In this document: piece after piece, positions 10,378-39,106 of the stretch | Layout: each line of letters starts with the position of its first letter | Numbering within the stretch: the first letter of the stretch is position 1 | Assembly: GCA_947179485.1 (NCBI GenBank) | Contig: OX359246.1 | Span: 8,060,001 to 8,124,000 of the forward strand | Direction: 5' to 3' | Length of the DNA stretch: 64,000 nt | Origin: Allacma fusca | Lineage: Eukaryota; Arthropoda; Collembola; Symphypleona; Sminthuridae | Program-made: the position numbers and the translations under genes | The notes under the pieces: generated by a model | Databases searched by the model: none | What the model was told of the DNA's origin: nothing | What the model saw: only the letters and a program-made list of their open reading frames with translations

Positions 10378-10379
10378 AT
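10376..10379. other. Target-site duplication of the LTR element, left copy
   Basis: ATAT directly precedes the left LTR, and the same four bases directly follow the right LTR at 39107-39110. Confidence 0.8.
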
Positions 10380-10962
10380 TGTTATGTTCTGTATTACCCG
10401 GGTATTGATGTTGTATGGGTAATAATAATGTAGCCTAGGTTCGGGTGTTCCATCCCCTGAATTCCTGGAATCCGATGTTGTTGGAAACGCATGAATAAAT
10501 GGAACTAATGAATTCTGTGTGTAGTTCGCTTTTATAATTATTTGAGCCGATTTATTGTTCCTAAACTGATACAATTTACACTGAACAATTAACATTTAAC
10601 ACAAATAGAATTTGAAGTCTGAATCTCTTCTTCTCATGAAATCTCCCGATTTCATGTCGCCCCGCTTGCTACCTGTTGAGATCCATCCCGGAGGGAATGG
10701 ACTCTAGGTGCGACTCCTCTTGATGTTTCTTGCTTGAAGTCGAGATTAGAACTTGTACTTAATCTACGTGTCTTAATCTAAATCTAATCTTATCCTATTC
10801 TTAGTTTATTGTTTATTAAATAATCTGAATCATTTCCTTTCCTTTACTTATGATTATGTTAGGTCAGCGTTTGGTCTCACGTAGCTTCTGCTTACGACCT
10901 TCTAAACTATTTGCTGACTTAGATTATGCTTATTCTACTCTATTTATAATATATCCGTAACA
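10380..10962 (-). repeat. 3' LTR
   Basis: 583 bp, starting TGTTA and ending TAACA (5 bp inverted termini). No difference from 38524-39106 was seen on line-by-line comparison. On the sense strand it contains TATAAATAG close to its 5' end, TATAAAAG at 10536-10529 and AATAAA motifs, candidates for promoter and polyadenylation signals. The U3/R/U5 borders cannot be fixed from sequence alone. Confidence 0.95.
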
Positions 10963-10973
10963 TTCCTCTTCTG
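10963..10973 (-). promoter_or_regulatory. Polypurine tract for plus-strand priming
   Basis: On the sense strand CAGAAGAGGAA directly precedes the TGTTA start of the 3' LTR. This is the expected place and composition for the primer of plus-strand DNA synthesis. Confidence 0.8.
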
Positions 10974-13580
10974 GGTAATTGTCGACCTCGACAATGTCAT
11001 CTGTCGAAGTTCAAGTTCATATTATTTGTAATTATACTAATGTTATTTATGTTACCTTACTTTGTAGCTATATGTTGGTCGTTGTATTGACTTTGTAGCA
11101 AGGTCGTAATGGTATTCATGGGTATTTGTTGTTAAGGCATTTTATACAATTTATCATACATGTTCATCATCATATGTGTGTATACTTTTGTAATGCTGTA
11201 CAATATTTGATGGTGTTACTGTTTGTATACTTACGTCTGATAATCAACCATTTTCATCCTTTCATCATTTGCATATACACTATTTACATGGAATATATCG
11301 TTATTTGGCTTGATTTCTAATGTTATTTATCGTATCTAAGATTAGAAACATCGTAGCAGAATTGAAAATTTTGTACACGCAATTATAGTATGTCGAAACA
11401 AGAATTCGAATCTCGAAAGATACATAAAAATACTATGTTTTGAAAAGAATTTGTTTGTAAAAACTGACAAGAATACTTGAAAGCAGATATGAAACATTTT
11501 CCCTTGTTTCTATTGTTATTTGATTTCTAATTTTTCTGATACCAAATTCTAGTTGTTGCAACAAGTGGGGTAGCATGTTTATATGCTGAGGTTGTTGTTA
11601 GATAATAGGACTGATAATATGTTATTTTTCGTGAAATCCCGTGACTTTCCTTGTGGAACAATTTAACATGTCACAGACAAATCGTTGTGGGGAAATGTGT
11701 GATTATCCAATATCACTATCAACGGTTTGAAGTGACGGTCTTGAGCGCAGTAGTGTCGCTCTTAAACACAATTATTTGAAAAACCGACGCTGAAACCTCC
11801 TGAGGTCTCTACAGAAAGTTTGAAAATCTTTTTATTTTCGCCTGTGAAATATTTGAGTTGTTTTTCGGTGGCTAAATTAGGAATTATGTCCTTCTCATGC
11901 ACAACTGTTGGCAATTTCACCAAATGTGAAAACATCGTGCTCCATGAAGTTCTGTAAGTGGTTCTTACTACTCCATAAGACATAAAATCATATTGTACCG
12001 TGAGCTATTTCCTCAACTGAGATAGGAATGTATTTTGGCGATAATCATAAATATATATATATATACCTTGATCTGTAAAAATTCTTATTTGATGAAATGT
12101 GTCAAATTTGTAAGTTAAATTTTCTGTTTAAAATTCCTTTCATAATTGTGTTTTCTTAATATAATTTTTGTCTTGGGAAACTATGGAATTTATCAAAGCT
12201 AATAAGACATTTGATCTTTTAAGATTTAAAACTGATCCTTTTTATTGGATAAACGAAGTGAACTTAATGATTCCGTAAACCTTTTGTCATCTATGATGTG
12301 TATTCGCACAGATAGCTTCCGTCTTAGACTTTTAACTCAAAATTGTAAAAAGATGTCAACACTGTTTGCAATGTGATTCTCGTTGCCTCTTGTACCTCTC
12401 GATTCACATTGGACTAGTTTACGACTAACAATCAAATATATCCATTACTGTAATTTTCTTACTTTTTATCTTTTTATTTAAAGTTCCTCCTACCTATTCG
12501 TGGTATATTTTTGTTTATTCTTCTGGTCCCTAGATCATTCATGTAGGCCCTTGGAATAGGTGAAGGTCCTTGCTCTCAAACGACATTAGGATCCTTCTGA
12601 TCGGGGCACATTCATGTCAATAATTTTTGATAAAATTATTTTCTAACTATCATTTGAAATGCGAAACACTTTGCAAGTAAATAATAAAAGAATTACACAC
12701 AGAAATTCTTTTGGAAGAATCTATCCTTTGGCCTTTCGTTTTACTTAATCCATTTTTCTAGGTACCTAAAATATTAGCACGTCTAGCTAAATAGATTTTG
12801 TTGAACTGAAGTTAAAAGGTAAACTGATCCTGATCGTAGAGAACTTGCTTATACAGGGGTCTGATTTTTGCTGGAAATTTGTTATCCCGCTCATCCCAAA
12901 CGATGAGTAGGTTAGAAATATAAATTTATTCTTCTCATATGGAGTTGAATAACCTAATAAAGTCACAAGGCATTACAATCATCACTCATTGAGTGAACAA
13001 GCCTCAAGGAATTATGATATTGCCTAAAATTTTTGTTAGAACTGAACCTTATCTTGAAACATTTTTCATCTCGTTAACAAATCAGTGTTTATTTTGAAAA
13101 CACAGCCTGACTTGATAGTGTTGATGTCTAATAAAAACCTAATCACTGGAATCAATGGGGTGAAAAGGAAATTGGAAAGAAAATGGATAATGAATCCAAT
13201 GATTGGGTTAATGACTGTGGAGCTGATGCCATTGGGCCATGAAAGATATATTGATTTGAATCACATAATCTTTAGACTGTTTTTTTCTTTTTACTCCTAT
13301 TGGAGATCTGCCTCTTTAACTAAGTGGAACTTTTCGTTCGTTATTTGAACTTTTATTATTTTCATTTCGTTTTTATATTTTTGTTGTATATGAACTTGGT
13401 TTTCTGTCTTTTCTCTTCCTAACCTTATTCTACTTATAACTACTTATCCTATTATTTTGCTAATACTATCTTATAACTAATAAATGTTTTTAAATATTTT
13501 TCCATACAATTTTATGGTTTTGTGTATATTTTTCTTCGTTGTTTTCTTTCTTGCGTTGATCCTTCCCGGTTGGGTCGGTG
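10974..13580 (-). other. Long 3' untranslated region of the LTR element
   Basis: About 2.6 kb of AT-rich sequence between the ORF4 stop and the polypurine tract. Only short unconvincing frames occur, the longest in sense direction being 73 codons at 11983-11762. It includes an AT dinucleotide run near 12050. It could hold export, packaging or regulatory RNA elements, but none is recognisable. Confidence 0.6.
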
Positions 13581-14327
13581 TTATAGTTGTACGGTTGCTC
13601 TGGTTGTGTGTCGGCTGGCTTGTTGTTGTGTATTGGGCCTCACAATTCTGCATCCGACTAGCTGCTCTATAGAATTTTGAACTAATGCCTGCGTGTCTGC
13701 AACATTGTCTAATTCTCTCTCATTCGGTTTTTGTTGATCTGATTTCTTTTTCTGCATTCGAATTCGGTACAGTATTACTGTGACTATAAATATCACTACT
13801 GTGGTAATACAACCGAATGAACTAATAATGACTACGGTATAATCCGTGTCTGATGTTGGAACCTCATTGGATTTCCAATCAATTTCGTTGAATTGCTCCA
13901 TCCATGGTGGTCTGCTATCCCTCAGCATCGTGGGCTGTTGGTTTTGTATGAATTGGGGTTGTATAAGTTGTTGTTGGGGTTGTAGTAGAGCCATTTGTTG
14001 ATTTCTCTCCATGATTCTCTGTGCTTCTACGTTTGGGTCGTTCGGGTCGTACTGCACTACGGCTAGTTTCCCGTCATCTTTGTGGTGTAGTATATGTACT
14101 ACTGGGTCTTTTTGTGATAACACTGATGCTGTAATGGCTCCGCTTCCGACGGTTATGGCTGGTACCATGTAATTTGCGAACCATTTTCCGACTTGAGTTC
14201 CTAGGGCTGCCATCAGTGGTCCTTGCCATGGTTCTGGACTTGGTTGTGCTATCGGCCTGGTTTCGGAAACGTCCATTGCAATTAGAGTTATTGCAAGGCT
14301 CAAAAGAATATACCACTTGTATTCCAT
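13581..14327 (-). CDS. ORF4: small type I membrane protein of the LTR element
   Basis: 248 codons. The N-terminus MEYKWYILLSLAITLIAM is a signal peptide. Then come a proline-rich start, a glycine/alanine-rich moderately hydrophobic stretch (about residues 40-70) and a Q-rich region (about 110-130). A clear membrane segment (YTVVIISSFGCITTVVIFIV, about residues 163-185) is followed by RIRMQKKK and a cytoplasmic tail of about 55 residues, giving a predicted type I topology. No N-glycosylation sequon is evident. It lies 567 bases downstream of ORF3, the position where gypsy-like elements often carry envelope genes. I do not recognise the family. It could be an accessory membrane protein or a reduced envelope subunit. 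How it is translated, probably from a spliced RNA, is unknown. Confidence 0.7.
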   Translation of the reverse strand: MEYKWYILLSLAITLIAMDVSETRPIAQPSPEPWQGPLMAALGTQVGKWFANYMVPAITVGSGAITASVLSQKDPVVHILHHKDDGKLAVVQYDPNDPNVEAQRIMERNQQMALLQPQQQLIQPQFIQNQQPTMLRDSRPPWMEQFNEIDWKSNEVPTSDTDYTVVIISSFGCITTVVIFIVTVILYRIRMQKKKSDQQKPNERELDNVADTQALVQNSIEQLVGCRIVRPNTQQQASRHTTRATVQL

Positions 14328-14894
14328 CCTTGGAAAATTTTGTATCTGTTTTTGGTTTCGTATTTCTGAGTAGTCTCAAGTATTTGAGCTCTCTGTGGGT
14401 GTTGAGATTATAATGAGTACTCTGGTTTAAGAATCTCTTATTTATATCAGTATATTGTTTGTGTTTTCATCTTCCGATTGCGAAAGAGAATTCTTTTCCT
14501 AATTCCAATGTTGTAATCCGTATGTCCCACTTCCGGTGACATAATCTTTTGTTAGTATTTTTTATCTTATGAACTCTATGAAATGTGTTAGTAAGTAAAA
14601 TATTTTTGTTTTGTTTTCTATTTTGTATTTTATTTTTATTTGTTTTTCTTTTCTAACTATTCTGTTATGGTGATCATTATGTAACATCCGCCGTAATCCC
14701 GATGGTTGATGCTACATAAGATCTTAAAAATGTTTTATCGTAGATCATCTCTTGCGAAATAATCTACACTTTACATTCCCTTCGGGAATTTCTTCCGTCA
14801 TCAGGTAATTTGGCTTCTGCTTTCCCCGCTAGTTCTCCTTCTCTTCCTACCATGACCTGGATGGAATGGTCAGGTTATTATCCTCTGTGACATT
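14328..14894 (-). other. Gap between ORF3 and ORF4
   Basis: 567 bases without a coding frame in the sense direction. In sense it includes a stretch ending AAAAACAG 21 bases before the ORF4 start, which could serve as a weak splice acceptor for an ORF4 mRNA. Confidence 0.4.
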
Positions 14895-20800: not shown

Positions 20801-21464
20801 GGTCGGCTCCCATCACTTTCCGAGATGAGCTTCGACTTGTCTTGCCTCGTTCGTACTGAAGGCTTGGAGTAAATGCCCAGGGGTCATGTTCATAATCTCC
20901 CCTTGGATTCTTTTGTCCGGGCACATCCTTTTCCTGCCTGTAATTTTGGACTAGCCATGGGTCATCTGGCTGTCTATTACGTGTTCTACAGATGGGGATC
21001 TGTCGTCGTATGGGAGTGGGATTAAATTCTTGTCCTTTAAAAAGGTAAACAAGATCATCTGGCGCTCGCTCGCCTCTATCTACTTCCACCTGCTGCTCCG
21101 GAAAATTTATTGACCCGCAAAAGTGCGGTTCTCGTCGTAATATACGATAATCTAGTGTTAACTCTCTAGGCTTTCTGAGAGCTCCGATGAGTACTGAATG
21201 AGTTACGATTTCTCGTCCATCTCGTCCTTGGATGATAATCCTGTGGGGTAACTTCCCGTCTACTCTGAGAACAACTTCCAGTCGTCCCGTATCTGAGTTT
21301 GGTAAAATTTTCGCTTGTGGTATTTCCACTTCAGTTTGACTCACGTATTGGGTCCAATAACGTGGTCGATCGTCGTCGTCCCTGTCGACGGCGGGTGGGG
21401 CGTCTTGGCGTGGAGTCTCGTTGGTTCGAGACCCGGATGCACGTGACCCTCTGTTCTCTGACAT
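14895..21464 (-). CDS. ORF3: large polyprotein with envelope-like central part
   Basis: 2189 codons, no recognised family. Features in order (approximate residues): arginine/serine-rich RS domain (298-365); a CX4CX16CXHH possible zinc site followed by a lysine-rich tract (478-515); a hydrophobic segment SWLSFLLMFGLITSAVG (789-806) that could act as internal signal or anchor; then a region with five NXS/T sequons (NST, NAS, NET, NWT, NVS); a second hydrophobic stretch (897-925); two furin-like basic sites, RVRR (about 1030) and RTRR (about 1125); a third weaker hydrophobic segment (1275-1302); CXXC motifs near 1390 and 1660; and a soluble C-terminal 500 residues without known motifs. Sequons and dibasic sites between hydrophobic segments suggest an envelope-like ectodomain embedded in a larger protein. 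In sense the start codon directly follows TATTTTATCTTCAACCAG, a good splice acceptor. Confidence 0.75.
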   Translation of the reverse strand: MSENRGSRASGSRTNETPRQDAPPAVDRDDDDRPRYWTQYVSQTEVEIPQAKILPNSDTGRLEVVLRVDGKLPHRIIIQGRDGREIVTHSVLIGALRKPRELTLDYRILRREPHFCGSINFPEQQVEVDRGERAPDDLVYLFKGQEFNPTPIRRQIPICRTRNRQPDDPWLVQNYRQEKDVPGQKNPRGDYEHDPWAFTPSLQYERGKTSRSSSRKVMGADPICGVTRVNIPEISEWLPQHEEQVEDVAHRINRRIDDNYGPDLRRGNLEDRRREPPRFAAYSAHMVPAGRGRGRAITTGESSSRHHRSSRESSRERHSSKDSRTRKRETESSSERKKRREDDRSRSRYDSPARSRSRRESTPPPSPFLSPAAKDYKDRMERESILTAPIAAPASSYTAVTKMPPPTIPVNSEPPKPQRAVCIAQRERPVEVPVVTPPSVAVTLWSEETATDTATTADRDTANESSSDSEEEETVPIQTCSRKGCKRVRQVIATDSGPVVQQECEHHAKKRAKKEKKVKKEAQMTILELFGQNTAPTQPPAKWQSNILKIGEDSRKAGKHEEMVNRIKDLGEIIRNLARQNVNADSAKKQKEELMKELARHRQEWIKLRNDNDFHLVCAESKIDLQTRELPPAHFEPTNIPTSTATSGELERLLAQEKRNDPETASSTGMATEMPPSPAQNVEVATSELSIAEQHNEQSSSSEDFELIRSKRRPKDRESSITSDTTEIVNHHQLSLADFANSPQDGTVILSDDEEPRQSTSSIQTPPHTPEMGRGGGGRRGGPIPYLGNSWLSFLLMFGLITSAVGQSTLRKELTGHYGPYPTTRASHYQWWTRLEIDNSTSPRGFDHVSLDFENKEDSEEIGHYDPYGQRECPPVGNSAVRYQGFGSATAHRLWQNGVVRGVAGAVGMCTTGMVIVGVYTSSILDAVRRWNKPLKTVKIPQDWVLIESQLPDQRPIWMIMPVNASEEKELEDFLKKDPTATEISPNLIALPGGIQRNAHYLNETSVAKVWNQALGKEVEEEESENGRVRRHAPEPTSEEEERRQKIRDQRKLPQAIWLMSQAIRDGYHLTTRTLQSVAMDLITKPIQLPLQTKYEIWKEYEIQYGKFIDKVIQILGLKTIHKRTRRSILAKDQINNLQRQMQNNPHSITKGEDYVHPTEEIAIGEVVHFALATTITEANWTIVLLIPHVYKGVDHLEEEELKGWETKAHANVSQTHPLFQRTSERAARERQRRDAFVGPTNAWSPVSYSKQFLKQQLQLMLARIEEEEAHSSSGRPTGIIQQLVRVTLRMVIYIGTSVGMDFGGNQDPIRKSDPGRSHPRRTEGAEGPVLASEEEPAVPTEQAMEAQEEGAGTSLNVIKEEVLDDEEKPPLEHQVDSSSDNETDSKWVQTRCEYCPLKHGHKPPVRPKTKLAAHEAWQRQKDIPVQYIRRSRPELDRLYGRDNAPNCTFQYRGRRRGPEPEIERPRVRVYSPIRTVIFNDTRDRQGSRSPSPGPSAITGQHIPPIEDKLKSRRARQRQRKVEFKEERQENPPAPAPEDPLAQPDSPDVRFVDLAHVSFYIGVRGWMVAPSWEDEDAEIVIFTNPNKTQLYSQLDPVRLQVKKMVERANDPLDHSPPPRFPDQVMEDISGDERHSQIEAQYSRRTNYFSNNMDTRERSTMCPHCYQKSTIDPERLPTYNISHRSTNSPEQNLVRWLNRMYRETFIERLDIHQQPTQPPQLRLEQLRRALSTLSEPRTDAHESNIEYAEHQAGIDYNNHGELIRERRALLYDAMDHPTDYRRLDPRERDLLILYGQSRRNVPMENTRLETMAGDMNISPGEMIPRLWTTLFNGQRGIDNHQVPTYLTCREHQGVMQGLTGTELRRLITQMWFDIGTQPTWREQEIWINSFLLRGDAITGRGEKALQQLASIPIHMLSFQEFASMTERLITLYHQDEAIQEWRQFGAMNQSGRSQPNPIDDIEEELGQWEDWIFAMKLAGEGQKPTTLYARKLKGGVATLRQPRRTGSFRDLNELVTIRIWQREHFHRIREQISNRGDGPSYKPYQLSPRNERRPGITPIHMVPSTIDRFQTPQWRSVVIDGRPDEPDIINLIRTLRGRTGIEIIFRDLGHDFIQEELRRDPVTQQRTSYLSITNPVEHRRLMDQLWERSERARWDPEILSENRFAVISFRTLAEGEEETGTLRGPSEEDD

Positions 21465-21466
21465 CT
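21465..21466 (-). promoter_or_regulatory. Candidate splice acceptor at the ORF3 start
   Basis: In sense direction a T-rich tract ending CAACCAG runs straight into the ORF3 ATG. Splicing to this site would make that ATG the first base triplet of the downstream exon. This is a prediction without RNA support. Confidence 0.5.
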
Positions 21467-27900: not shown

Positions 27901-28914
27901 TCCCTTGTTGAATGCGAAACATTCTGGATATCTTGTCAACAATGCTCGGTACTTAGCTCTTCCTTCCTCATCGAGCTCTTCATTGACGTCGAAACAATCG
28001 AGCTGTTCTTGTGTGAGCCTTTTATGAGCATCACGTAATTGATTGCGCTTGATTTTGATGAGATCAAAATTTTCCTCAGCATGACCTATAGCTGTCCGTC
28101 CATACATTGTCTGTGGGCATGGAGCTGGATTAAATACATATGCGAAAGGTTCTTCATTTGGTACTACACCTGCGGCTACTAAAAGTCGCTTGCTGGTGTA
28201 TAGTTTCTCTGATGGTTGTAAATAAAAATCCTTTTTAATGTGTTTTGGAATTTGTATGGGCACTTTCATGTGTCCGTAGGCTGGTATCGTGACTGCTTTT
28301 CGAGTCCTGCACATCATGTTCTTCGGTCCTTTGACTTCATGAAATGAAAAAATTGACCTGACAAATTCTATGTCGGCCTTTTTCTCTCCGACGTAGAGAT
28401 GAGTGTCTCTAGTCATTGGAACTGTTTGAAATCGGTCACTCCGTATTTCATTATTCTTGTAATCCAACGTTATTCCATAACGTGATAAAAGATCTTCACC
28501 TATGATCATTCGTGGTTCTAGTGTTTCCATCACTAGACCTTTGAATAAAAGCTTTTCACCTTCAATCATCATTGTGAATTTGGTAAGGCAAATTGGTTTT
28601 ACCAATTCCGCATTTGCTACTGCTATACGCAGAGCGCTTGGAACTTCTTTTATTTCCGCACATCTGGGTACTAAGTTTCTTTGGATACAGGATCTTGTTG
28701 CTCCTGAATCTAGTAAAGCTGGTATCATCATACTGCATATTTGTACTTGTAAAGTGGACTTGTTGCCGTTTGATAAACGACATGGGTTGAGATCAATAAT
28801 TTCTAATTCTTCGTCGTCTTTTGACTGACTTTCTACTCTAGTTGCTATAATTGCATTCATTCTTTCTTGGATATCTTCAGTTACTGGGGGTGCGTCCCCC
28901 TCTGTGAGTTTCCC
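21664..28914 (-). CDS. pol: pol: protease, reverse transcriptase, RNase H, integrase
   Basis: Open frame in -1 relative to gag. It is open from the frameshift site at 28914; its first ATG is at 28860 (2398 codons from there). Numbering from that ATG: aspartic protease motif LLDSGATRS (D51); RT with SPLFLIKKKDGTFRSVVDYR, the catalytic D in FDTLDMESGF, and YLDD (about 490); RNase H with HTDAS (about 646); integrase H2C2 zinc finger (about 1430-1477), then core D (ALCIDLIGP, about 1500), D (SDGGSEF, about 1563) and E (GQIERM, about 1597), and a GPF-type C-terminal module (about 1730). All catalytic residues are present. Two parts are unusual: a roughly 630-residue linker between RNase H and integrase (765-1395), and a roughly 640-residue hydrophilic tail with SSENYSD/DKNYSY and STEED repeats. 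Family: Ty3/gypsy. Confidence 0.95.
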   Translation of the reverse strand, partial: GKLTEGDAPPVTEDIQERMNAIIATRVESQSKDDEELEIIDLNPCRLSNGNKSTLQVQICSMMIPALLDSGATRSCIQRNLVPRCAEIKEVPSALRIAVANAELVKPICLTKFTMMIEGEKLLFKGLVMETLEPRMIIGEDLLSRYGITLDYKNNEIRSDRFQTVPMTRDTHLYVGEKKADIEFVRSIFSFHEVKGPKNMMCRTRKAVTIPAYGHMKVPIQIPKHIKKDFYLQPSEKLYTSKRLLVAAGVVPNEEPFAYVFNPAPCPQTMYGRTAIGHAEENFDLIKIKRNQLRDAHKRLTQEQLDCFDVNEELDEEGRAKYRALLTRYPECFAFNKGDLKEPAWIDPIRIHTGNNPPVQAKPFPCSPMERQKVREEVQKMLDADIIKEVNGPYSSPLFLIKKKDGTFRSVVDYRALNKTITDQVYPLARIDDILMQFGKSAMFDTLDMESGFFQLLIHEDDQIITSFITQDGLYAFKRLPMGVKIAPSAFQRAADQMLGSLKFRGAMVYLDDVISYGIHLLDKLASLEELMLRASNKNFKFKPKKCKFGYFEVIVLGFKVSREGTSPDPAKVDAIRHVPIPKSETEARRFFGICSFYRKYIKDFAKIASPISQSWIGSKGKSEGQKRIRCFQWSADATIAFNILKTKLMTQPVLAHFNPELDCILHTDASISGLGCCILQDDGGEHPIAYASRTLIQSEKNYSVTELELAAVVYAVRKFRQYLYLRKFLIRSDHLALCYLRLQKDPNHRISKFVNKLQEFDFQVTYKKGALHLDADFLSRAPLPYTKEDLEDTEDRVIEFDPDPVKEHKIALEEQKQIPQRNIIMPPPACAASLTTRESYKGKYWTDDESQSSDEDEAIVPQRQNPWSGRLKGQPRRKVKTQVEILAPQPNLEETDWENHTMNVKSRVNEVTHSYSALKEWKLSVDDIVTIHEFREDDPQEDENTWKYTNEYIYEKNLKLIQEIELHNATINELDMKEFLSPKKVQVQNEKEDFDRNTITDIGMGTDWSPTPKSTTAITSQSPANGKVDIDSPKSQGQMTRSTMEFTTMDGAGEAETKAVHLPPAIIVDSDTEVHDQTLKNQETADLVSQAAETTQEKSSTNPPTHPASPKEAKKLVLTDEDRNVQKECDRPTLEQEKFSVENHIPSGHDPTDEEKWFAFEETWRNPTSTKGDEWKLKQEVISQLKTYTAQSARKTDQVPDAESPGYVNNPDLDTPQRIKAMKISRDVDEWMKNIQRRSAACESEENKNPPPSHTYISTENPDDKNNFSLLATTVEELRKDIQEGEIRFTDGRSWKIQPLKGQGVVTSKKTSHSLCLSQDEDQRNKDAQKTEDMSLNRAIKFVPGAHALQGCEGSIDTFSTHKPVCRILEDEEQVTMLEEHNMQEMQRDDPDCLFIMDKIKMRHTLNWKDKEKYSRYEIDEEGILTIVHKDGRKLYVPRVLRNFLLSKAHDGILCGGHLGFQKTLHRLNKNYFWRKMNVSVAKYVMSCESCQAAKSMRMKPAGLLHPIRIENVGDALCIDLIGPMQISIKGNKYIIIAQDYVSKFVIAEAIPDKTADRIAEFLLHKVVLKYGLFKNLLSDGGSEFRAEITQALLRRLGMNHSTSTALRHNSVGQIERMVQTISTMLSHYTQKEQALWCSCLPFLINAYNCSHHDVTKETPYFMMFRRQPIYDFNLQLCLSSVDTNFMSAEEATTRIEKAIAKIRERQDYSKDWYDRKRRFVKFNIGDTVRVFTPTRIVGKSERFLHPYKGPFVVIEVLAKDNYIIQDLRNSKKRQKVHVERLKKCLQREHIEDEYSYDLDSDIVELVTKRNWNKCGKVIVSQPRSILKSSTTSDNSSTTSKKVTFKVQPAQTEEITREFSSENYSDSSSDQTQPVQQRGEFCDKNYSYSQITPSEGGRSNQGPRQHKDNTQGGKGTIKQSSTQVRKFSSENYSDNREFLDKNYPYFTRSKVNEHPRGNQGRDKGIETTEEFSPNKNLEVRSSGRVHQTENRRLRTANSGDKTSNVKFLPTSGEITRRGSTRITDDTYKERINPNHPGITSPINQGKGERNSSQTKNFTSDFGTTGNTEQIETTRGRSQSNPPGNPESQRRYFGFNKPAENSSGVISEGEEETQPLIDESEFKTLKELSTSGISPTELDVDDSSECRETNSYNSGSEPRINQPPTTERGRPGQIETGNQGPSEATSRVEVPWPSVAADISTQLLHSDEQKALEEPPFVELNIKPTQRSSETDTAKPTSARQSDQRSNSTSGERNRTNRESQEYSEKSDTSSKQPSQQFKQPSEREVLVENSTEEDEEFQEVPTDENGQDSVDTHTEVINIPVEFSTEEDRSLDVITKDSPRRPERIRTNTSEHRETFSDPQNPTSTNPTGTSTSSGGDSGVKEAGETPQEESAEETGESRRYPTRTRKRTKRFGSV
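22050..22295 (-). CDS. Alternative-frame coiled-coil ORF 4
   Basis: 81 codons in the same +1 frame as its neighbours. The heptad-like stretch covers about residues 24-65 (REAIARVEREIEQTERAKNI). It starts 33 bases after the stop of the preceding small ORF. It overlaps the pol tail completely. Confidence 0.4.
   Translation of the reverse strand: MSKRPWKSPPLWNSTSNPPSEAQRQTLQSLQAQGSRIREAIARVEREIEQTERAKNILKNQIRAANSLANNSNNPRNEKSL
22329..22499 (-). CDS. Alternative-frame coiled-coil ORF 3
   Basis: 56 codons in the same +1 frame. Nearly all of it after the first 8 residues is heptad-like (RQILTIRDQNRELINRLRQR, KLKQEIKDLQKRLHEL). It is the most regular of the five. The pol frame over the same bases is S/T/N/P/E-rich and low in complexity. 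Confidence 0.4.
   Translation of the reverse strand: MWTTAVSVERQILTIRDQNRELINRLRQREGDLDKLKQEIKDLQKRLHELRCLGPQ
22599..22841 (-). CDS. Alternative-frame coiled-coil ORF 2
   Basis: 80 codons in the same +1 frame, rich in L, I, K, E and Q with heptad spacing throughout (QGLQAQLIKAKENEIRLKQR). Its ATG lies three bases after the stop of the preceding small ORF (TAA CTG ATG), a spacing that could allow termination-reinitiation. Confidence 0.4.
   Translation of the reverse strand: MTHTKRELILIIQGLQAQLIKAKENEIRLKQRILHQISEQQEILSKLKQLEGDHKATLQETQKAKEDISDLINQLKIAQV
22845..23057 (-). CDS. Alternative-frame coiled-coil ORF 1
   Basis: 70 codons, the first of the series, starting MNTLEEIRDEIRGLKQQRN and continuing with a second heptad-like stretch (AAQEEYIKQRIADLELLIQ). 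It lies within the pol tail in the +1 frame, downstream of the integrase domain. Confidence 0.4.
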   Translation of the reverse strand: MNTLEEIRDEIRGLKQQRNLVQIKIWKYAAQEEYIKQRIADLELLIQETKPQTSSFCPQVEKSQDEVQPE

Positions 28915-31900: not shown

Positions 31901-34900
31901 CTGCTGAGTTTGGTCTGACGGGGACAGCTGGAGCTGTCGGTGTCGTTGGTCGGTTTGCTGACCTGGTTATGAACCTTCCGGTTGGTCTAGCTGGTACTGC
32001 AAAAGTCGTTGCTGCACGTGTCGTAGATGCAGGTGTTGCTGTCCGTGACCTTAAGGTGTCACCTTGGACGTACGACTCGTTGCTTCTAGATGTTTGTTCT
32101 GAAGGTGGTGGTTGTGGTGCTGTTACAAGCTCTCCACCTTCTATGATGGTCCTGTCGTTGTTGGTTGCTCGCTGCAGGATGTCTCGACCTCGTAAACTGT
32201 GGCGGTGTATACCTGTGCGTCCTATCGGTAGATTGTTGTATAACGAGCCTCTCGGTGATTGATAGACGGTAAACCTGTCTTGGGGTCTAAATGCCTGATA
32301 GTAAGTACCTGTGTCCGAATTTCTGATGGTATTTGCAATAGTCAATGACGGATTCTGTTCCCGTAGTTGTCTCCCTACTTGCACCAATGTTCTTAAAGCT
32401 GTTTCACTAACGTCAAGTGGCGGTGTCCGCAACGCGTGCACGGGTGGGTGTACGTAGATTCGACCTCCCGGTGACTGGTAAACTCGGTGTACCAGTTGGT
32501 CGTTGTTGGTTGCCTGGGTGGAATCTGTGTTGACGTACAGTTTTGTTGTTGCTAAATCCCTCTTAACGTTAGCCTGCGATGTACTACCAATTTGGGTGGT
32601 CTCGACCTCCTCCGTTGGTGTCTCCAAATCGTCTTGGGTGGGTTGTGGCCTAAATTGCAAGTTAGGTTGAGTTGGTCGATTCCTTGGCGTATTTTCCGTT
32701 GAAACCTGTCTATTCTGACTGGTTGGTGAGACGTGTGCTGGGTTGATTTGCTGTGTTATCTCGTGAGAGTTGCTGTGTCGGCTTGACTGCCTTCTATCGC
32801 CTGTTGCAGGTGTTGAGCGACAGGAATTACTGGACCTCGGGGTCACTCTAGGTTGTGTCGTAGAGCTCCCTACTGGTGTCTGATTACCTGTCTGGACTGT
32901 AGGTGATGTAGTGGGTGCTCTTGGGCTACCCTTCTGAGTGGCTGTCTCGCAACGGCTGTTGCTTGGTCTCTCACGTGTCGTACTCCCTTGTGGACTGGTC
33001 CTGGGATTTAAGTTGCTGTTTTCCTCAGCACTATTTACCCTGTAATGTCTTCTCACCGATTTCTGGAAAAGTTGTGACCTAGGTGATGAGTAATCTACCT
33101 GGTTACTATCCGTCACCTGGTTACTTGGTCTGAGATGGTCACGATCGGAGTTACTCGACTTCCGATTTCGAGGGGTTGTTAAACCTGCTTGAAGTGTCGC
33201 TGAGGCTATTGCCTGGGCTATAGCCTTGTTGATTGAGCTTGAGCTGGTATTCAAGCTTTCGGGTGAAATCCTTCGTGACGTAACGGGTTGTACTGTAGGT
33301 TCGCCTGAGATGGTCCTTAGCGTAGATCTAGATGCTGGTTCTAATAAACCCGTAACCGGATTCCGTGTTACTGGTGGGTTTCGTTGTTCGTACCTAAGGT
33401 ACCTGCTAATGATGTTGTCAGCACTGGAGTCGATTATCCTTGGCTGGGTGGTCCCGTTGTTGTTTGGATCTTGTTCTGGACCTGGCCTACTCTCGTCACT
33501 GACTCGCCTTTCTTGTCGTGGTTGTCCAAATTCTAGATTTTCGCTAAGTCTTCCGGATTGTATCACGGTTGTATACCTAGGTGTATCGTTGAAGAAAATC
33601 TGGCTATCCTGGTGTGCCTGATGACTTCTCAACGACAATACCCGGTGCTCTAAAAGGTTTCGGATGACGTCTGTGGGGATGAAAATGTTGTCCCTGACGT
33701 TCCGACCGTACTCGAAGGCACGTGTACGTAACACTTCCCTTTCTTCCCTATTCGGATCCCTGTTGTTGTCCCGTCTGTGGGTGACTTCAGCTAATCTAAG
33801 GAAAAAATGTGTCCACTGGACTGTACCTGTATAAAGATTTTGAGCTAACCTGTGATACACCTCTATCAGTTGTCCTTCCAATCCTCGAACTACCAGAAAA
33901 TTTTCCACTGAGTTCCGTTGGAAGCCTGCGGTGGTCACTAATTGTTGAAACGAACCTGCTGGTACTATCACACCTGTACCTGTCACTAATTGTACGAAAT
34001 TTTCTTCCACTCTTTGGATGTTATCTTGCCCTTCTCTGATCGGTGGTAACTGATCCTCGACTGGGCCTTCCTGTTCTGTAGACTCAGACACCCGGCTGAG
34101 TGTCCTTTGGAAGCCTATATCTCCTCTATTGGAAAATCCTGGAGATGGTCTTGATAGAAACCTGTCTCGTACAAGTTGTTGTATGTCTGGTTGTTGAGAA
34201 ACTGTAGTATTCGACTGTGAAGCCTTACGGTGGTCACTGATGCTTAAATTTGATAACTGCTGATTTAATTGAGTAGTGACCTGGTCACGATCACTCCCTA
34301 TACTGGTGTTAGTACGTGGCAATCCTGTTGGTGAGTCACCTTGTTCGCTCTGTTCAGTTGACTCGTCCGATTGAGTTATTGCTAAATTGTCCCTAAATGA
34401 TGAGTGCGTACTGAGATTTCCTGGCTGGATAATCTCTGGTGTACTTGTTGCTATAGCAATTGGTCTATTGGAATCCTCCAACTCATCCAATTCCGTTGAG
34501 CTTTGCTGATTAACCTGTTGTTCTGTTTGTCCAGTAGCTTTGCTGCACATTCCTTGGCTTTGTACATCCTGTTGGGATTGTACACTCGTATCTTGAGGAA
34601 TGTCTCCGTTGCCAACTAGGTTTGTCAGGTTGCTGACAACCACATTGTTGGCTGATTCACTGGTCACGTCTTCCATCTCACTTTCTGGGGTTGCGAATCC
34701 TTGCTCGCCCTCCTCTACGCTTGTGTGATTGCTTCCAGGATCCGTGATGATTTCAAATGATGACGTGGCAGCGCTACTAGTTGGTCTTTCCTCAGGTTGA
34801 TTGAATTGCGACAGGATTTCCTTGATCGTGGGGTCCGCATCGTGACTGACAAAAACCATGTCTCCTCTAGCATTTAGCATGAATTCGCCTGTGGCCTCAA

Positions 34901-35447
34901 CCTCCTGGTCTTGTTGGACCTGTTGGCCCTCCAGGTTGGTTACCTCGAGGTCGCGTAATTCTCGTTGCATAGCTAGTCTATGGAGATTCTGTCCTTGCAC
35001 CACCTTTGTTTTTGAAAACTTTGGTGTTTGTGCTGTCGATACTGTTGGTGTTCGTTTAGGACTGGTTGCCGTACCTGTTGCAGGTGTTGACACCGTGTCC
35101 AAGAACACATCCATGCTTTCATCATTATTGTCAGGATTATCTCCGTGCCCCATGGCCTGCGAGCCCGATGGACTTTGTGCAGATAATGCCAGGGTTGTAC
35201 TGCCGGATTCTTCCATGACTGTAGATGTCGAAGCTGAAGACGTTGAAGAGAGGTTTACACCTGCCGTTGCTGTATTAGCTTTGGCTTTTGCGGCTTTTCT
35301 CTCCTCTTTCCTACGGGCGAGGATTTCCTCCAAGCCTGTTTCGTTCTGTGGCACTGGGCCTGCCGATCGCGTAGTCCTTCGAGATGGTATTGAAGGTGCA
35401 GGTGGTGGTTCCCTTCTTGATGGATGTTGGTTCTTTTCGGGTTCCAT
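28881..35447 (-). CDS. gag: gag: very large capsid/nucleocapsid polyprotein
   Basis: 2188 codons. The first 1400 residues are mostly Q/S/T/N/R-rich and probably disordered, with no family I recognise. An acidic run follows near 1386, then a G/R-rich stretch and a polyserine run near 1577. A retrotransposon gag (capsid) domain lies at about 1656-1833 (DPPVRDWIRNWIAE, INWDEFREEFLIRYS and the following helices). Next is an N/G/Y/R-rich region with about ten QGY-type repeats of seven residues (1989-2076), and near the C-terminus a CCHC zinc knuckle CFGCGEMGHLRRNC (about 2152-2165). Typical gypsy gag is 300-500 residues, so most of this protein is extra. The start codon follows ACAGGT, a donor-like site. 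The stop at 28881 follows a frameshift signal. Confidence 0.9.
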   Translation of the reverse strand: MEPEKNQHPSRREPPPAPSIPSRRTTRSAGPVPQNETGLEEILARRKEERKAAKAKANTATAGVNLSSTSSASTSTVMEESGSTTLALSAQSPSGSQAMGHGDNPDNNDESMDVFLDTVSTPATGTATSPKRTPTVSTAQTPKFSKTKVVQGQNLHRLAMQRELRDLEVTNLEGQQVQQDQEVEATGEFMLNARGDMVFVSHDADPTIKEILSQFNQPEERPTSSAATSSFEIITDPGSNHTSVEEGEQGFATPESEMEDVTSESANNVVVSNLTNLVGNGDIPQDTSVQSQQDVQSQGMCSKATGQTEQQVNQQSSTELDELEDSNRPIAIATSTPEIIQPGNLSTHSSFRDNLAITQSDESTEQSEQGDSPTGLPRTNTSIGSDRDQVTTQLNQQLSNLSISDHRKASQSNTTVSQQPDIQQLVRDRFLSRPSPGFSNRGDIGFQRTLSRVSESTEQEGPVEDQLPPIREGQDNIQRVEENFVQLVTGTGVIVPAGSFQQLVTTAGFQRNSVENFLVVRGLEGQLIEVYHRLAQNLYTGTVQWTHFFLRLAEVTHRRDNNRDPNREEREVLRTRAFEYGRNVRDNIFIPTDVIRNLLEHRVLSLRSHQAHQDSQIFFNDTPRYTTVIQSGRLSENLEFGQPRQERRVSDESRPGPEQDPNNNGTTQPRIIDSSADNIISRYLRYEQRNPPVTRNPVTGLLEPASRSTLRTISGEPTVQPVTSRRISPESLNTSSSSINKAIAQAIASATLQAGLTTPRNRKSSNSDRDHLRPSNQVTDSNQVDYSSPRSQLFQKSVRRHYRVNSAEENSNLNPRTSPQGSTTRERPSNSRCETATQKGSPRAPTTSPTVQTGNQTPVGSSTTQPRVTPRSSNSCRSTPATGDRRQSSRHSNSHEITQQINPAHVSPTSQNRQVSTENTPRNRPTQPNLQFRPQPTQDDLETPTEEVETTQIGSTSQANVKRDLATTKLYVNTDSTQATNNDQLVHRVYQSPGGRIYVHPPVHALRTPPLDVSETALRTLVQVGRQLREQNPSLTIANTIRNSDTGTYYQAFRPQDRFTVYQSPRGSLYNNLPIGRTGIHRHSLRGRDILQRATNNDRTIIEGGELVTAPQPPPSEQTSRSNESYVQGDTLRSRTATPASTTRAATTFAVPARPTGRFITRSANRPTTPTAPAVPVRPNSAVAGPSRVTTTPTTSQGKVNWLDDLQYGVNIWTGPSGRVYTSENEATEDELVPSRVTVRQYARIARKQDRFRNQGVENEATWTGQVRRLIYYNRRDGIIQRRFRPARDSNFEAFAATRAEHEEIVLSEHPIFTFWNIITRRSLDPGQISSYIAPNFRLYHRHISLPNGVRRQRVPPGFLEEIENEHDHQEALNRLIHDPNVEILSDTSSEEEEEQVIQRDTPRRESGQHSSAQSSVETEHIFIGVDEEDFIIPEVPGQFTIRISIDDAYDAAFRAIERDEEIQEEVRFVDNTGETHFFPRIRLRDLSPETQVVLTQVRKRRKPLRARRQIGNNQPRPPGPGPSGSGRGNQPRGANNNNFHNQRPSQSRSNPGRGGSRGGRHIGGRQRARSDPGSSGGSSSSSSSSSSNSSNPHDFEAFDNWRNRQIVNRNNFFNQVNVNIINPYVPINRNQGIRIEEVADQEQVRIIPRRHLDDDMTALMFPKVEFKPGVDDPETAFATAELQTNRFGGDTIITRMQYVQIIFDPPVRDWIRNWIAERRLHEELPYDTINWDEFREEFLIRYSITDQMIRTLMEKRKMNTDEDPCAYIDAKLALINRVDRFMPELEKIRLLRAGLTSEYIVFCRGWTAGTVADFIEGIKQYDEDRKTDGAESIETRFAKVQEMLEKLTSGMKPVPAETTVVKIAAVREQQDYRRPENRPNDQRGRSPGQGNFNNSRNSSPGYSNNNNYPDRGRNNQGYDDRRSYGNRGRSPTPERFYNNQDRSRPQYRNDGNNSNNQGYPQRNQNFGSRQSPNRQYYNNNPNNQGNRQWNDQQMNQGYNQSYNGYNSQGFNQTQGFMPPQGFNPNQGYPPQQGYAPFQGYAPTQGYGPSQGYVPQQGYGQGQNAGYANTGMQQIQANPQGYQNQGYQPNNNQGGQRPQQYNNNNNRSRTNSRDRNSQSNDRNNSWRNQPDRQEQSQPIPGQLALESTQTDLKCFGCGEMGHLRRNCPHKRQSSPYPSGNSQRGTHPQ
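28889..28914 (-). promoter_or_regulatory. -1 ribosomal frameshift site at the gag/pol junction
   Basis: In sense direction the gag codons TCG GGA AAC (28916-28908) contain the heptamer G GGA AAC (28914-28908), a canonical X XXY YYZ slippery site. The 7 nt spacer TCACAGA follows, then GGGGG-ACGCA-CCCCC (28901 down to 28887), a five-pair GC stem with a five-base loop. The gag stop comes right after. The pol frame is exactly -1 to gag and is open from here. Confidence 0.85.
29237..29462 (-). repeat. In-frame 21 bp repeats coding the QGY tract in gag
   Basis: About ten near-tandem units encoding (Q)GY/F followed by P and two to four polar residues. The resulting low-complexity tract resembles the aromatic-spaced repeats of FUS-like prion-like domains. 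That comparison is on composition only. Confidence 0.8.
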
Positions 35448-35450
35448 ACC
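35448..35450 (-). promoter_or_regulatory. Candidate splice donor 2 nt before the gag start
   Basis: In sense the sequence reads TTTACAG then GTATGG, with the gag ATG inside the donor hexamer. Splicing here would remove the gag start codon and could join the leader to a downstream acceptor such as the one at the ORF3 start. A second candidate donor (G/GTAAGG) lies just after the primer-binding site at 38491-38490. Confidence 0.45.
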
Positions 35451-35559
35451 TGTAAACGTCCTAACTTTTTCTTGATGGGCTGAAAAATGCTAAGGCGTTT
35501 CGTAGAGTTTGGTTTTATGAATTTGTTTGACGGTTGTGAGAGTTCTTTTGTCAATTCCA

Positions 35560-36090
35560 AACCTGAAAACCTTCTTAAAACTTATGCCAAATTTTAACTT
35601 TAACCGTTTCCTAAAATTATGCCTTGTATGCCTGTGCTTATGTAACCCTAATTGTTAAACTTAATTTGCCAATTGGTGATGATAACTTGGAGAGAAAAAA
35701 TTTTCCTGTGCTTATAACCTAAGTGTTCAATCCCTGAACATCCCTAACCTTAGCTGTGAATAGTCTTAAAACTTAATCTCTGTAATTTTAACGTTTCTAA
35801 TGAGTACCTCCTGGTGTTACCACCTGAATTTCCTTAAAACCTAAACTTTCTAATCTTAACTTTCGTTAGCTTATCCTCCTTAAACTTATTCCTGTCTTAC
35901 AACCTAACTGTTTTTAAACTTAATTCCCTTAAACTTAAACTTCTCTAAACTTAGTCTCCTTAACCCTATCCTCCTTAAAACTTAATGTCCCTATTCCTAC
36001 TCACCTTAAAACTTCAACCTCTTAAACTTACTTATTTGCAATGGCTAGTTGCGTCTAACTCCTTAAACTATCAGTCTTTTTGTCCGTCAA
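35560..36090 (-). repeat. Degenerate TTTAAGG-type repeats in the leader
   Basis: Read on the plus strand the words CCTTAAAC, CCTTAAAACTT and TTAAACTTAA recur dozens of times without a fixed period. In the RNA this gives a purine-rich, weakly structured stretch directly upstream of gag. Confidence 0.6.
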
Positions 36091-36516
36091 CACTCCTCAC
36101 ATTCGGGCCGGTGTTGCCTAAATTCCCTAAATACTCCTGTAATGATTCCCAGAATTAATAAGGACTGTATTCCTCGCTACTAATTACCCTTCTGTCCCAA
36201 AGGATATGTTTCGCGTCCTAATTCGTACCTAAGAACTTCCTTGAACCGATCCTACCATCAGCAAGGCTTGTATCTGACGTAGACAGCAAAAACTGAAAGC
36301 ACCAGAATTTACTGAATTCCTATCCCTATAACCAACTCTCAAAAACCATGAGCCTGTGGTTTCTTATGCCAATTCTCTCTACTCTAGCAAAATCCTTCGA
36401 GAATGGCTAAACTTATGATGCACTCAAAACCATGAGTCATCTATGGAAGAAATAATAAATATGAAAGTCCCTACGTATGGCCATAGCTGGAAACCGCATA
36501 CATAGATTTTAAAGTG

Positions 36517-36772
36517 AACCTCCGTGCTTTGGAATGTCCCCTGTTATCCTATCCACTAAACCATGGACCTCCTTACTAGTAATAGTCATTGCTGTTACCT
36601 ATCCGCTAGCTCGGGCACATTACAAACATATACCTATATCGGTGCGTCAATCATAGCCTCTCCGATTACCTCTAGTAGGTCACAGGCTTATCGGTACTTT
36701 TGTCGGCACTCCATCCGATCACCTCCGTGCTTGGAATGACTCGAACCCTACTAAACCATAAGGTTCCTCCTA
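36517..36772 (-). repeat. Two related tRNA-like units in the leader
   Basis: Sense strands of 36574-36517 and 36772-36719 share AGGAGG, ATGGTTTAGT, CATTCCAA(A)GCACGGAGGT in the same order about 200 bases apart. The first reads TGGTTTAGTGGATAGGATA, close to the D-arm (A box) of eukaryotic tRNA-Glu. The second contains GGGTTCGAGTC, which fits a T-arm (B box). Neither folds as a complete tRNA by eye. Confidence 0.5.
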
Positions 36773-36827
36773 ATCTTCCTAGCCTCTCGGATTCTACGTA
36801 TACTAAAACCTATACACAACAATGATT

Positions 36828-37842
36828 GCGCTCATAACTCGGCCCTTCAATCCCTAAACTACGTGGATGAGAATTTTCTTATATGTATGCTTATGTACTA
36901 TGCCAATGTGTCCACGCTCAATATACCTCGGCCCTTTGGACTAAATTTTGTTCAAACCTTAATTAAACTGTCCTAATCACCTCGGCGCTCATATTCGGCC
37001 CTTCCGAACAAATTTTGTTTACCTTACATACTATAATCTTTAGATGGTCTGATCTACCTATGCTCTCTAACTGAGCTATATAGGTTTTGATTTGCAAAAT
37101 GACTAAACTGAAATCTGATATGCTCCGTGCTCACGTTCGGCCTTCCGGATTAACTTTAAAGTCCTAATATTTGCCAAAACCATGACAAATTATGTCCTAA
37201 TTACCCAGCGCACAAAACGGCATTTCTGGTAGAAATGGAAAGATGGAAGAAGAAAAGAAGTTTGTGAAAAGTTTATGATAGTTCCTATTGTTACCCGTGT
37301 AAACCTACACATCAGGTAAAGAAAGTAATTTTCAGCGAAAGAGTTTTAATTGGGTTTTGCCACCTTGCCATGGGGCTCTTAATTACGTAATTTGGAGATA
37401 AAGACTTTAGAGACATTTGCGCTCAATGACGGCCCTTCAAATGTACTTATACTAGAAGGAGAAAAGATGTAGAGAAAGAAGAGAATGAAAAATTATTTTT
37501 TGAGTTGTTTAATGAAAGATAGATCATATTGTTGCTTTAAACTAAGCTTGGAAAGTAAATTCTGAGAGTCTTGTGTTAATAAAAAAAATGTCCTAATTTA
37601 ATGAAAGATTTTAATTTGTGTTTTGGGTTCCTATCCCCTAGCCTGGGGTTTCCCAAAACTTTGAAAAGTGATTTGAAGAGTTAAAAGAATTTCAACGCTC
37701 AAAAACGGCCCTTTTGAAATTTGGAACTTAAACTTACGAAGAGAAAGATTACTATTATACTGCGCACAGAAACGGCCCTTCAGCCGGAATAGTTCCCTTT
37801 ACAATACGAACACTGTTTATGCCTCCGCTCACAACGGCACTT
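36828..37842 (-). repeat. Nine-copy GCGCTCA...CGGCCCTT motif in the leader
   Basis: On the plus strand GCGCTCA or a close variant is followed within 2-8 bases by CGGCCCTT(C). Copies start at about 36828, 36914, 36985, 37127, 37208, 37419, 37695, 37762 and 37825. Between copies the sequence is unrelated, so these are dispersed conserved words rather than a simple tandem array. In the RNA each reads (G)AAGGGCCG...TGAGCGC. Confidence 0.7.
37035..37088 (-). other. tRNA-Lys-like 5' half in the leader
   Basis: In sense CCTATATAGCTCAGTTAGAG and the following AGCA resemble a tRNA D-arm (TAGCTCAGTNGGTAGAGCA). The ATCAGAC that follows resembles the start of a tRNA-Lys anticodon arm. No B box follows, so this is a fragment or a mimic and not a tRNA gene. 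Confidence 0.45.
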
Positions 37843-38505
37843 AAGGCGTCTAAAAAGATAGAAGAAGACTTATTTTACTGGAAGAAGCTAATTTTGGTGA
37901 AAATTTGTTATGCACACACACCTACTATGTACTCTGAAAACCACAAAATACATATACATATATGCGCAATTTTCTAATTTAAACATATGAATTGTATTTA
38001 AACTCTGGTTAATTACTCCTGAATATTAGCTACGCCTCGTAACTACATGACAAAATTAATATGCTCCTAATCATGAAATTCATGAACCTTAAAGAAAATT
38101 TTGTATTACCTTGTTGGACGTCCTCTTCCCCTAATTTTCCGGTTGGAAAGAGTCCCAATTTCACTGGTCACTTAAAATAGTATTTCCGGCCGTAAAAAAA
38201 ATAGTTCTTTTTATAGTGCCGCACTAGGACTTCTGAACTGTTATTTGAATCCGCGCGTGATGATAATGGCCAAATTTCCTTTCTTGAGGTAACATTGTTG
38301 CATGTTATAACTGCCTTTCACGAGAAGTTTCGGGTGGCCCTGGAGAGAAATGAAACACTTACTCCTTGTCGAGCCCCATACTTCCATCCCGTGAATTTTA
38401 TTTGACTAACGACCTTACTTGCTACAAAGTTTGGTCTTTTGTCACAGGGTCATCCGCAGGTCCCCGACCTACGGATCCTCCGGGTCCTTACCAAATAAAC
38501 CCGAA

Positions 38506-38523
38506 GGCCTGGCAGAAACACCA
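38506..38523 (-). promoter_or_regulatory. Primer-binding site, tRNA-Val-like
   Basis: Immediately inside the 5' LTR the sense strand reads TGGTGTTTCTGCCAGGCC. The complement ends GCAGAAACACCA, which differs little from the 3' end of animal tRNA-Val (GGCGGAAACA plus CCA). The deduced acceptor strand GTTTCTG would pair fully, so a tRNA-Val variant is the likely minus-strand primer. Confidence 0.75.
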
Positions 38524-39106
38524 TGTTATGTTCTGTATTACCCGGGTATTGATGTTGTATGGGTAATAATAATGTAGCCTAGGTTCGGGTGTTCCATCCC
38601 CTGAATTCCTGGAATCCGATGTTGTTGGAAACGCATGAATAAATGGAACTAATGAATTCTGTGTGTAGTTCGCTTTTATAATTATTTGAGCCGATTTATT
38701 GTTCCTAAACTGATACAATTTACACTGAACAATTAACATTTAACACAAATAGAATTTGAAGTCTGAATCTCTTCTTCTCATGAAATCTCCCGATTTCATG
38801 TCGCCCCGCTTGCTACCTGTTGAGATCCATCCCGGAGGGAATGGACTCTAGGTGCGACTCCTCTTGATGTTTCTTGCTTGAAGTCGAGATTAGAACTTGT
38901 ACTTAATCTACGTGTCTTAATCTAAATCTAATCTTATCCTATTCTTAGTTTATTGTTTATTAAATAATCTGAATCATTTCCTTTCCTTTACTTATGATTA
39001 TGTTAGGTCAGCGTTTGGTCTCACGTAGCTTCTGCTTACGACCTTCTAAACTATTTGCTGACTTAGATTATGCTTATTCTACTCTATTTATAATATATCC
39101 GTAACA
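38524..39106 (-). repeat. 5' LTR
   Basis: 583 bp, visually identical to 10380-10962. It abuts the primer-binding site with no gap, which fixes the element's orientation. It is followed on the plus strand by the ATAT duplication. Confidence 0.95.

Follow-up and report, generated by a model that had tools for sequence, protein, structure and literature searches.

A giant Ty3/gypsy-type retroelement of the springtail Allacma fusca with many mosaic copies

Introduction

Excerpts of a review (PMC6431247) describe two kinds of giant long terminal repeat (LTR) elements, Burro of planarians and Ogre of plants. Burro has an internal region of up to 25 kb (>30 kb with LTRs) and carries gag and pol in a single frame together with accessory domains and an env-like part, with domains linked to apoptosis and to ubiquitin; in Ogre, much of the length comes from LTRs of 1.9–6.5 kb, the internal region being 11–13 kb (PMC6431247). 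Errantiviruses, or insect endogenous retroviruses, are defined by an F-type envelope in the excerpts of a second paper (PMC12992720). No account of giant LTR elements in Collembola was found in such parts of the open-licence PMC literature as our searches returned. Here we describe a 28.7 kb Ty3/gypsy-type LTR element, several times the length common in its kind, in a stretch of 64,000 nucleotides of the springtail Allacma fusca (contig OX359246.1, C8:8060001–8124000 of the 392.7 Mb assembly GCA_947179485.1), hereafter ‘the window’.

Results

Anatomy and copies of the element

The element lies on the minus strand at positions 10380–39106 of the window and spans 28,727 bp, of which 27,561 bp are internal. 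By its anatomy it is an intact LTR element of the Ty3/gypsy type: it has LTRs of the TG..CA kind (termini TGTT..AACA), a short target-site duplication, a primer-binding site (PBS) and a polypurine tract (PPT), and its pol carries protease (PR), reverse transcriptase (RT), RNase H and integrase (IN) in this order, with the catalytic motifs DSGA, YLDD and DD35E all present (Table 1). An initial annotation, made from the letters of the window alone, had described just such a giant element with all long frames open, and each of these parts was confirmed in the sequence. Base-by-base alignment of the two LTRs gave 0 mismatches over 583 bp, as that annotation had claimed by eye; the many differences that would have contradicted it are absent. 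Its figure of about 20 kb of coding sequence, accounting for most of the extra length, was right too, since coding regions total 21,245 of 28,727 bp (74%).

Exact searches of the assembly found 109 PPT-LTR (3′) junctions and 119 LTR-PBS (5′) junctions, the reversed-pattern control giving 0 in both cases, and copies are present on all six chromosomes. A 28-nt core of the LTR had 134 exact matches; the first 100 of them formed 49 pairs (98 matches) and left 2 singles. Spacing was 28.0–28.4 kb in 43 of the 49 listed pairs and 19.9–34.0 kb in the other six. Further full-length copies, which the initial annotation had proposed to look for, are therefore numerous, while nearly all listed cores being paired means that solo LTRs with this exact 28-nt core, the only kind covered by the count, are rare.

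Long frames are widely kept. Among the best-scoring places, frames without a stop were found in 21 of 21 for gag, 20 of 20 for pol and 20 of 21 for ORF3 (open reading frame 3), and of 18 copies compared (the window copy and 17 fetched ones), 17 have an ORF3 of exactly 2207 codons. In a broader search with a 251-residue ORF3 query (best 150 of 225 candidates, tallied by eye), 102 places matched at ≥95% identity over at least residues 2–251: 76 had an uninterrupted frame of ≥2201 codons, 24 had a shorter frame and two had a stop. Three further places at ≥95% were dropped as partial matches (residues 9–251, 1–184 and 1–167). The idea of an intact giant family thus stands as to the number of copies and needs amending as to uniformity: there are several diverged, recombined lineages, with LTRs 95–98% identical to the window LTR in a set of 19 copies and 85–92% in four others, and close copies do not all retain the full ORF3 frame.

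Some copies stand side by side. Elements in tandem share an LTR at C1:24.77–24.83 Mb, with a PPT directly before a 5′ LTR, and the listed junctions and cores suggest the same at C9:31.14–31.17 Mb and C8:12.18–12.21 Mb. At C10:60.41–60.56 Mb and C1:79.6–80.1 Mb, adjacent copies score the same or almost the same in the ORF4 and ORF3 searches, and these sets probably arose by local duplication instead of independent insertion.

On the X chromosomes, C5 (X1) and C9 (X2), the element is depleted about two- to threefold. Counted by eye, the X chromosomes hold 15 of 119 5′ junctions (32 expected, p 3e-4), 13 of 109 3′ junctions (29 expected, p 2e-4) and 8 of 77 copies of the frameshift module described below (21 expected, p 7e-4). 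The host shows paternal genome elimination (PMC9630974), which gives the spread of transposons in it an interest of its own.

Age and insertion sites

We compared the two LTRs of 23 copies. Twenty pairs were identical, and three had 2, 2 and 3 differences. In the set of 19 copies closest to the window LTR, 19 of 19 pairs showed no difference, while between copies of this set the mean LTR difference is 3.8% and the smallest 0.9%. Four more divergent copies (of ten sought) were added to offset the choice by similarity and had 3, 2, 2 and 0 differences. Alone, the 583 identical base pairs bound the age of the window element loosely; the wider sample is much stronger. At a fly-like mutation rate of 2.8e-9 per site per generation, zero differences in 19 × ~580 bp put the mean age of the set below roughly 50,000 generations, an estimate that borrows its rate and would shift if springtails mutate at another one. 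These data support recent activity of the family in A. fusca. The proposal of a young, intact, giant and mostly coding element is supported by the exact junctions at both ends, the 23 LTR pairs and the purifying selection on the extra regions reported below.

Target-site duplications of 4 bp flank 21 of the 23 copies (ATAT 17, ATAC 3, GTAT 1); hence the element prefers RTAY sites, mostly ATAT. Of the two copies lacking a duplication of their own, one sits directly behind another element with which it shares an LTR, and the other has none.

Recombination among copies

The copies are mosaics of one another. Along ORF3, the nearest neighbour of a copy switches between segments of ~950 nt (four copies displayed). 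Linkage between 426 informative sites in 17 copies falls from an r2 of 0.32 under 50 bp to 0.10 at 200–400 bp and 0.07 beyond 800 bp; it thus comes near background, taken as 1/(n−1) = 0.0625, within ~400 bp. Four-gamete incompatibility climbs at the same time from 0.22 to ~0.5, none of 1000 shuffles of site positions matched the decay, and at least 141 recombination events are required in 6.6 kb. Linkage decays likewise in the LTRs (26 sites, at least nine events, 0 of 1000 shuffles).

Although mosaic when compared across copies, the two LTRs of each of these copies form an identical pair, and mixing most likely took place before or during reverse transcription. Exchange after insertion ought to break the identity of the LTRs within a copy; recombination therefore most likely precedes integration. 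In retroviruses, reverse transcriptase switches template between the two RNAs of one particle. Switching between two different co-packaged RNAs would be the simplest mechanism here as well.

Selection on coding regions

The ratio of non-synonymous to synonymous divergence (dN/dS) of ORF3 is 0.106 (dN 0.0113, dS 0.106; 136 pairs among 17 of the 18 copies, the stop-bearing one being left out). It is low in each block of 150 codons (0.04–0.20), and variable sites number 145, 110 and 546 at codon positions 1, 2 and 3. For gag and pol, with five sequences each (the window and four copies), the ratios are 0.10 and 0.14. The conserved cores are the most constrained, with 0.01 each for the capsid block, RT-RNase H and IN, and the added regions are constrained too: gag codons 15–400, 401–800, 801–1200 and 1201–1600 give 0.21, 0.11, 0.19 and 0.09, and the pol insert 0.19. 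ORF4 has 0.35 (six copies). The extra length is thus in use, as purifying selection on the added regions argues; the C-terminal extension of pol, at 0.47, is the weakest case.

Table 1. Features of the element in window coordinates
Feature	Position	Strand	Details
5′ LTR	38524..39106	-	583 bp; TATA-like TATAAAAG (by eye)
PBS	38506..38523	-	TGGTGTTTCTGCCAGG; directly after 5′ LTR (38523 downward)
Leader	35490..38505	-	3.0 kb
gag	35489-28881	-	2202 codons; first Met = codon 15
−1 frameshift module	28886..28914	-	slippery GGGAAAC 28914-28908, 7-nt spacer, hairpin GGGGG-ACGCA-CCCCC
pol	28926-21664	-	2420 codons
ORF3	21518-14895	-	2207 codons; Met at 21464
ORF4	14375-13581	-	264 codons; 248 aa from Met at 14327
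Conserved 3′ non-coding stretch	11850..11999	-	150 nt, identical in six copies
PPT	10963..10972 (10972-10963)	-	AGAAGAGGAA; precedes 3′ LTR
3′ LTR	10380..10962	-	583 bp
Target-site duplication	10376..10379	.	ATAT, 4 bp; partner 39107-39110

gag, pol and the predicted frameshift site

The gag product has an N-terminal extension of ~1600 residues with biased composition, a weakly matching capsid-like region at ~1730–1810 and a CCHC knuckle at 2168–2181. In Pfam, the knuckle barely exceeds its cut-off (20.9 vs 20.8 bits) and Retrotrans_gag stays below (E 0.1); compared by hhalign with a capsid profile built from five hand-chosen sequences out of 73 pol matches, the capsid-like region gave E 4e-4.

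In pol, PR (residues 56–154), RT (405–565) and RNase H (638–765) are followed by an insert of ~650 residues, IN (1442–1789) and a C-terminal extension of ~600 residues. PR, RT, RNase H and the zinc and C-terminal domains of integrase are above their Pfam cut-offs, with the integrase core slightly short (32.2 vs 32.6 bits). The closest solved structure to residues 356–869 (RT-RNase H) is that of yeast Ty3 (PDB 7q5b, 4ol8; E 1.8e-102). The best protein-database match to residues 1–850 is the frog protein P0001 (36% identical), which we rejected as a giant relative; by eye, two pol-like parts of the ordinary kind are fused in it.

Frame pol is −1 relative to gag, with an overlap of 46 nt that contains a predicted −1 frameshift module. 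The slippery sequence is in register with the gag frame (G GGA AAC), and the 29-nt module has 78 exact matches in the genome versus 0 for the reversed-pattern control.

ORF3 and ORF4

An acceptor-like TATTTTATCTTCAACCAG stands directly before the ATG of ORF3 and was found in 17 of 18 copies by an exact search for the start motif. Together with a donor-like AAG|GTGAGT near 36007 in the leader, retained in five of six copies, it makes it likely, as far as these motifs can tell, that ORF3 is made from spliced RNA.

ORF3 has weakly hydrophobic stretches at 805–828 and 917–943. ORF4 has a strong membrane segment near residues 161–192 of 248 and, by eye, a hydrophobic N-terminus; its Pfam matches lie over the membrane segment and are all below cut-off (best ECSCR, E 2.5e-4, 21.3 vs 27 bits). 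We found no relatives of ORF3 in Pfam (best E 0.11, far under the cut-offs), NCBIfam or PDB. A length-limited search of 5.8 billion proteins returned none for ORF3 or ORF4 at E 1e-3, so that in the databases searched neither has a relative outside the A. fusca genome. Two further ideas were rejected: the C-terminus of ORF3 is not a second Gag capsid, hhalign against the capsid profile doing no better than shuffles, and comparison of ORF3 with gag found no relation that would make them duplicates of each other.

Non-coding parts

The primer site agrees at 15 of 18 bases with the complement of the 3′ end of host tRNA-Val(AAC), the best match among nine host tRNA-Val stretches examined; one of the three mismatches is a possible wobble. 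A run of 76 nt in the LTR is unchanged among 19 copies. In the leader, ~600 nt without a long frame (36740–36142) have 2–3.4% variable columns as against 4–16% in most of the remaining leader (six copies), and the sense strand is G-rich in the 1 kb around it; one might guess at an RNA element for packaging or export. An Rfam search gave no match.

Related giant families in the same genome

A search with ORF4 found at least 28 further places at 50–55% identity, of which 25 are free of stops (best 150 of 215 candidates), and a search with a piece of ORF3 returned a matching set, mostly 63–66% identical, with frames of up to 2341 codons. One copy of this second family (4.3 kb fetched) aligns with residues 1436–2207 of ORF3 (49%) and with ORF4 (53%), the membrane segment included. 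Distances from RT to ORF3 and ORF4 are 12.5 and 14.4 kb in the second family (C8:9291715, 9304199, 9306128) and 11.5 and 13.5 kb in the window family; the layout is therefore common to both and slightly longer in the second.

Among the best 150 of 1950 candidates for a piece of RT, 110 are 96–100% identical, 23 are at 92–94%, the RT identity of the second family, and 17 at 88% (by eye). The last 17, C8:11959793 and C10:61601011 among them, have equal scores, and in 14 of 17 the pol frame has 2251–2252 codons; no ORF3 or ORF4 match accompanies them among the matches listed. This third set is possibly a larger, younger giant family.

Neighbours of the element in the window

An inverted pair of a repeat array with a 32-bp period (9494–9651 and 10221–10377) ends 2 bp before the 3′ end of the element. 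Positions 1–9300 hold repeated stretches, 86–98% identical and with similar ORFs, resembling a tandemly arrayed family that encodes secreted proteins; two pieces tested matched no Pfam family. On the plus strand, a 139-aa ORF at 47934–48353 matches the HYD1-type ADP-ribosyltransferase (Pfam Tox-ART-HYD1, E 8e-8), here in an animal genome.

Discussion

The observations are probably explained by an autonomous giant retrotransposon of the Ty3/gypsy type that was active recently, packages mixed RNAs and needs its extra genes to complete its cycle. In such a cycle, the LTR promoter would give a genomic RNA of ~28 kb, whose reverse transcription tRNA-Val would prime. Translation of gag would be carried into pol by −1 frameshifting, and spliced RNAs would provide ORF3 and ORF4, which may help to assemble particles or function at membranes. 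Particles would hold two RNAs from different genomic copies, between which RT would often switch, and IN would insert the product at RTAY sites, mostly ATAT. Every new copy would then be mosaic in its own way and have a pair of identical LTRs, and the extra genes would be required along the way.

Several observations weigh against parts of this account. The 19 identical LTR pairs come from copies picked because they resemble the window LTR (the best 40 of 292 candidates). A little linkage persists over long distances: r2 is 0.073 between LTR and ORF3 versus 0.062 after shuffling (1 of 200 shuffles reach it), and 0.075 versus 0.062 between the first and last thirds of ORF3 (3 of 500). About a quarter of the close ORF3 copies (26 of 102) are shortened or bear a stop. 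At its third base (window 38521) the primer site of the window copy reads TGG, as the CCA end of a copied tRNA would give; 90 of 100 listed sites read TGA, a mismatch that tRNA-templated synthesis would be expected to repair. One of six copies lacks the donor-like site, and neither the region of the frameshift hairpin (z −0.77) nor the LTR (z −0.87) folds more stably than shuffled sequence.

Other explanations have to be set against the same data. Once inserted, the chromosomal copies might exchange sequence by gene conversion, which could yield both mosaicism and identical LTR pairs, and a genome with many close copies, some in tandem with a shared LTR, offers it substrates. The LTRs themselves are mosaic, however, and 3.8% apart between copies, so that foreign tracts would split a pair, and 0 of 19 pairs differ; the target duplication is moreover intact in 21 of 23 copies. 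Mixing before integration is thus strongly indicated, and we hold conversion to be quite unlikely. An assembly artefact is the least credible alternative: multi-copy repeats that exceed typical HiFi reads can be mis-joined, and chimeric or collapsed repeats might then have made both size and mosaics. Yet copies lie on six chromosomes with target duplications of their own and, save one of 20.5 kb, are nearly equal in length; linkage is lost over a few hundred bases, and HiFi reads are far longer than that. HiFi reads were used for the A. fusca assembly, according to excerpts of its description (PMC10427803). A chimera at the ends of the window element, which the initial annotation had named as a possible refutation, is unlikely because many independent copies share its length and layout, as judged from the assembly. 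Nor is an ordinary Ty3/gypsy element padded with long non-functional open sequence at all probable. No known domain is recognised in its added regions, and a large share of them is biased in composition, but this reading is already contradicted by the dN/dS of the N-terminal gag blocks (0.09–0.21), the pol insert (0.19) and ORF3 (0.11), by the constant length of ORF3 and by the presence of ORF3 and ORF4 in the second family; some room is left to it by the C-terminal extension of pol alone.

An infectious enveloped springtail retrovirus, integrated as many strains, is a less remote idea, which we still find improbable. ORF3 and ORF4 would be its genes for entry and assembly, and the copies would be independent infections of the germline. 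Consistent with it, copies have few close sisters (the closest pair among 17 differs at 67 of 6621 ORF3 sites) without ageing of the LTRs, two ORFs follow pol, an acceptor-like site marks the start of ORF3, and ORF4 resembles a membrane protein with, by eye, an N-terminal signal. By Pfam, however, neither ORF3 nor ORF4 contains an envelope or F-protein family; ORF4 contains two cysteines and lacks an N-glycosylation motif, ORF3 is free of cysteine across 1001–1400, and two scans of IMG/VR viral contigs, with pol and with a C-terminal piece of ORF3, gave no relatives. Equal ORF4 scores at neighbouring places (C10:60436450/60560647, C1:24797093/24825285) also imply that local duplicates exist. 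There is, finally, a bolder reading, to which we give about one chance in a handful: a 28 kb retrovirus-like agent of springtails whose copies would make up a single population that recombines almost freely, two different RNAs being packaged and reshuffled in each round, and in which ORF3 and ORF4 would form a new membrane or entry and assembly module, unrelated to envelopes, that enables the packaging of long RNA and perhaps spread between cells or animals.

With over a hundred copies of this 28.7 kb element in a single genome, recent ages for the copies that were dated and selection acting on the extra genes, A. fusca offers a young, non-planarian system in which to study the size limit of such elements. 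The decay of linkage means that copies of a retroelement behave much like a sexual population, and such reshuffling could be what protects so long an RNA genome from decay by mutation. Kept in two families and with no relatives found, ORF3 and ORF4 are candidates for new parts of the retroelement toolkit.

Comparison with known systems

Among solved structures, that of yeast Ty3 comes closest to the RT-RNase H block; Ty3 itself is far shorter and has no extra ORFs. Errantiviruses have ATAT-type targets, as here, and are several times shorter than the window element. They also resemble it, as far as the excerpted description goes, in having gag-pol and a third ORF behind pol, for which splicing is predicted here from the conserved donor-like and acceptor-like sites; they differ in the F-type envelope, which Pfam did not find in ORF3 or ORF4. 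Ogre, in the excerpts, belongs to the same giant Ty3/gypsy size class and differs by its multi-kb LTRs, which contrast with 583 bp here.

By description, Burro is the closest known kind; we class the springtail element by its anatomy as Ty3/gypsy, and neither as Burro nor as an errantivirus. Unlike in Burro, Pfam scans of the element gave no BIR, BCL2, MATH, ankyrin or dUTPase domain; its gag and pol occupy different frames, linked by a predicted −1 frameshift site, ORF3 stands behind pol and the LTRs are short. Set side by side on the excerpted description only, both are giant gypsy-like animal LTR elements with a large extra coding capacity, and with an internal region of 27,561 bp as against up to 25 kb (PMC6431247) the springtail element reaches the size of Burro.

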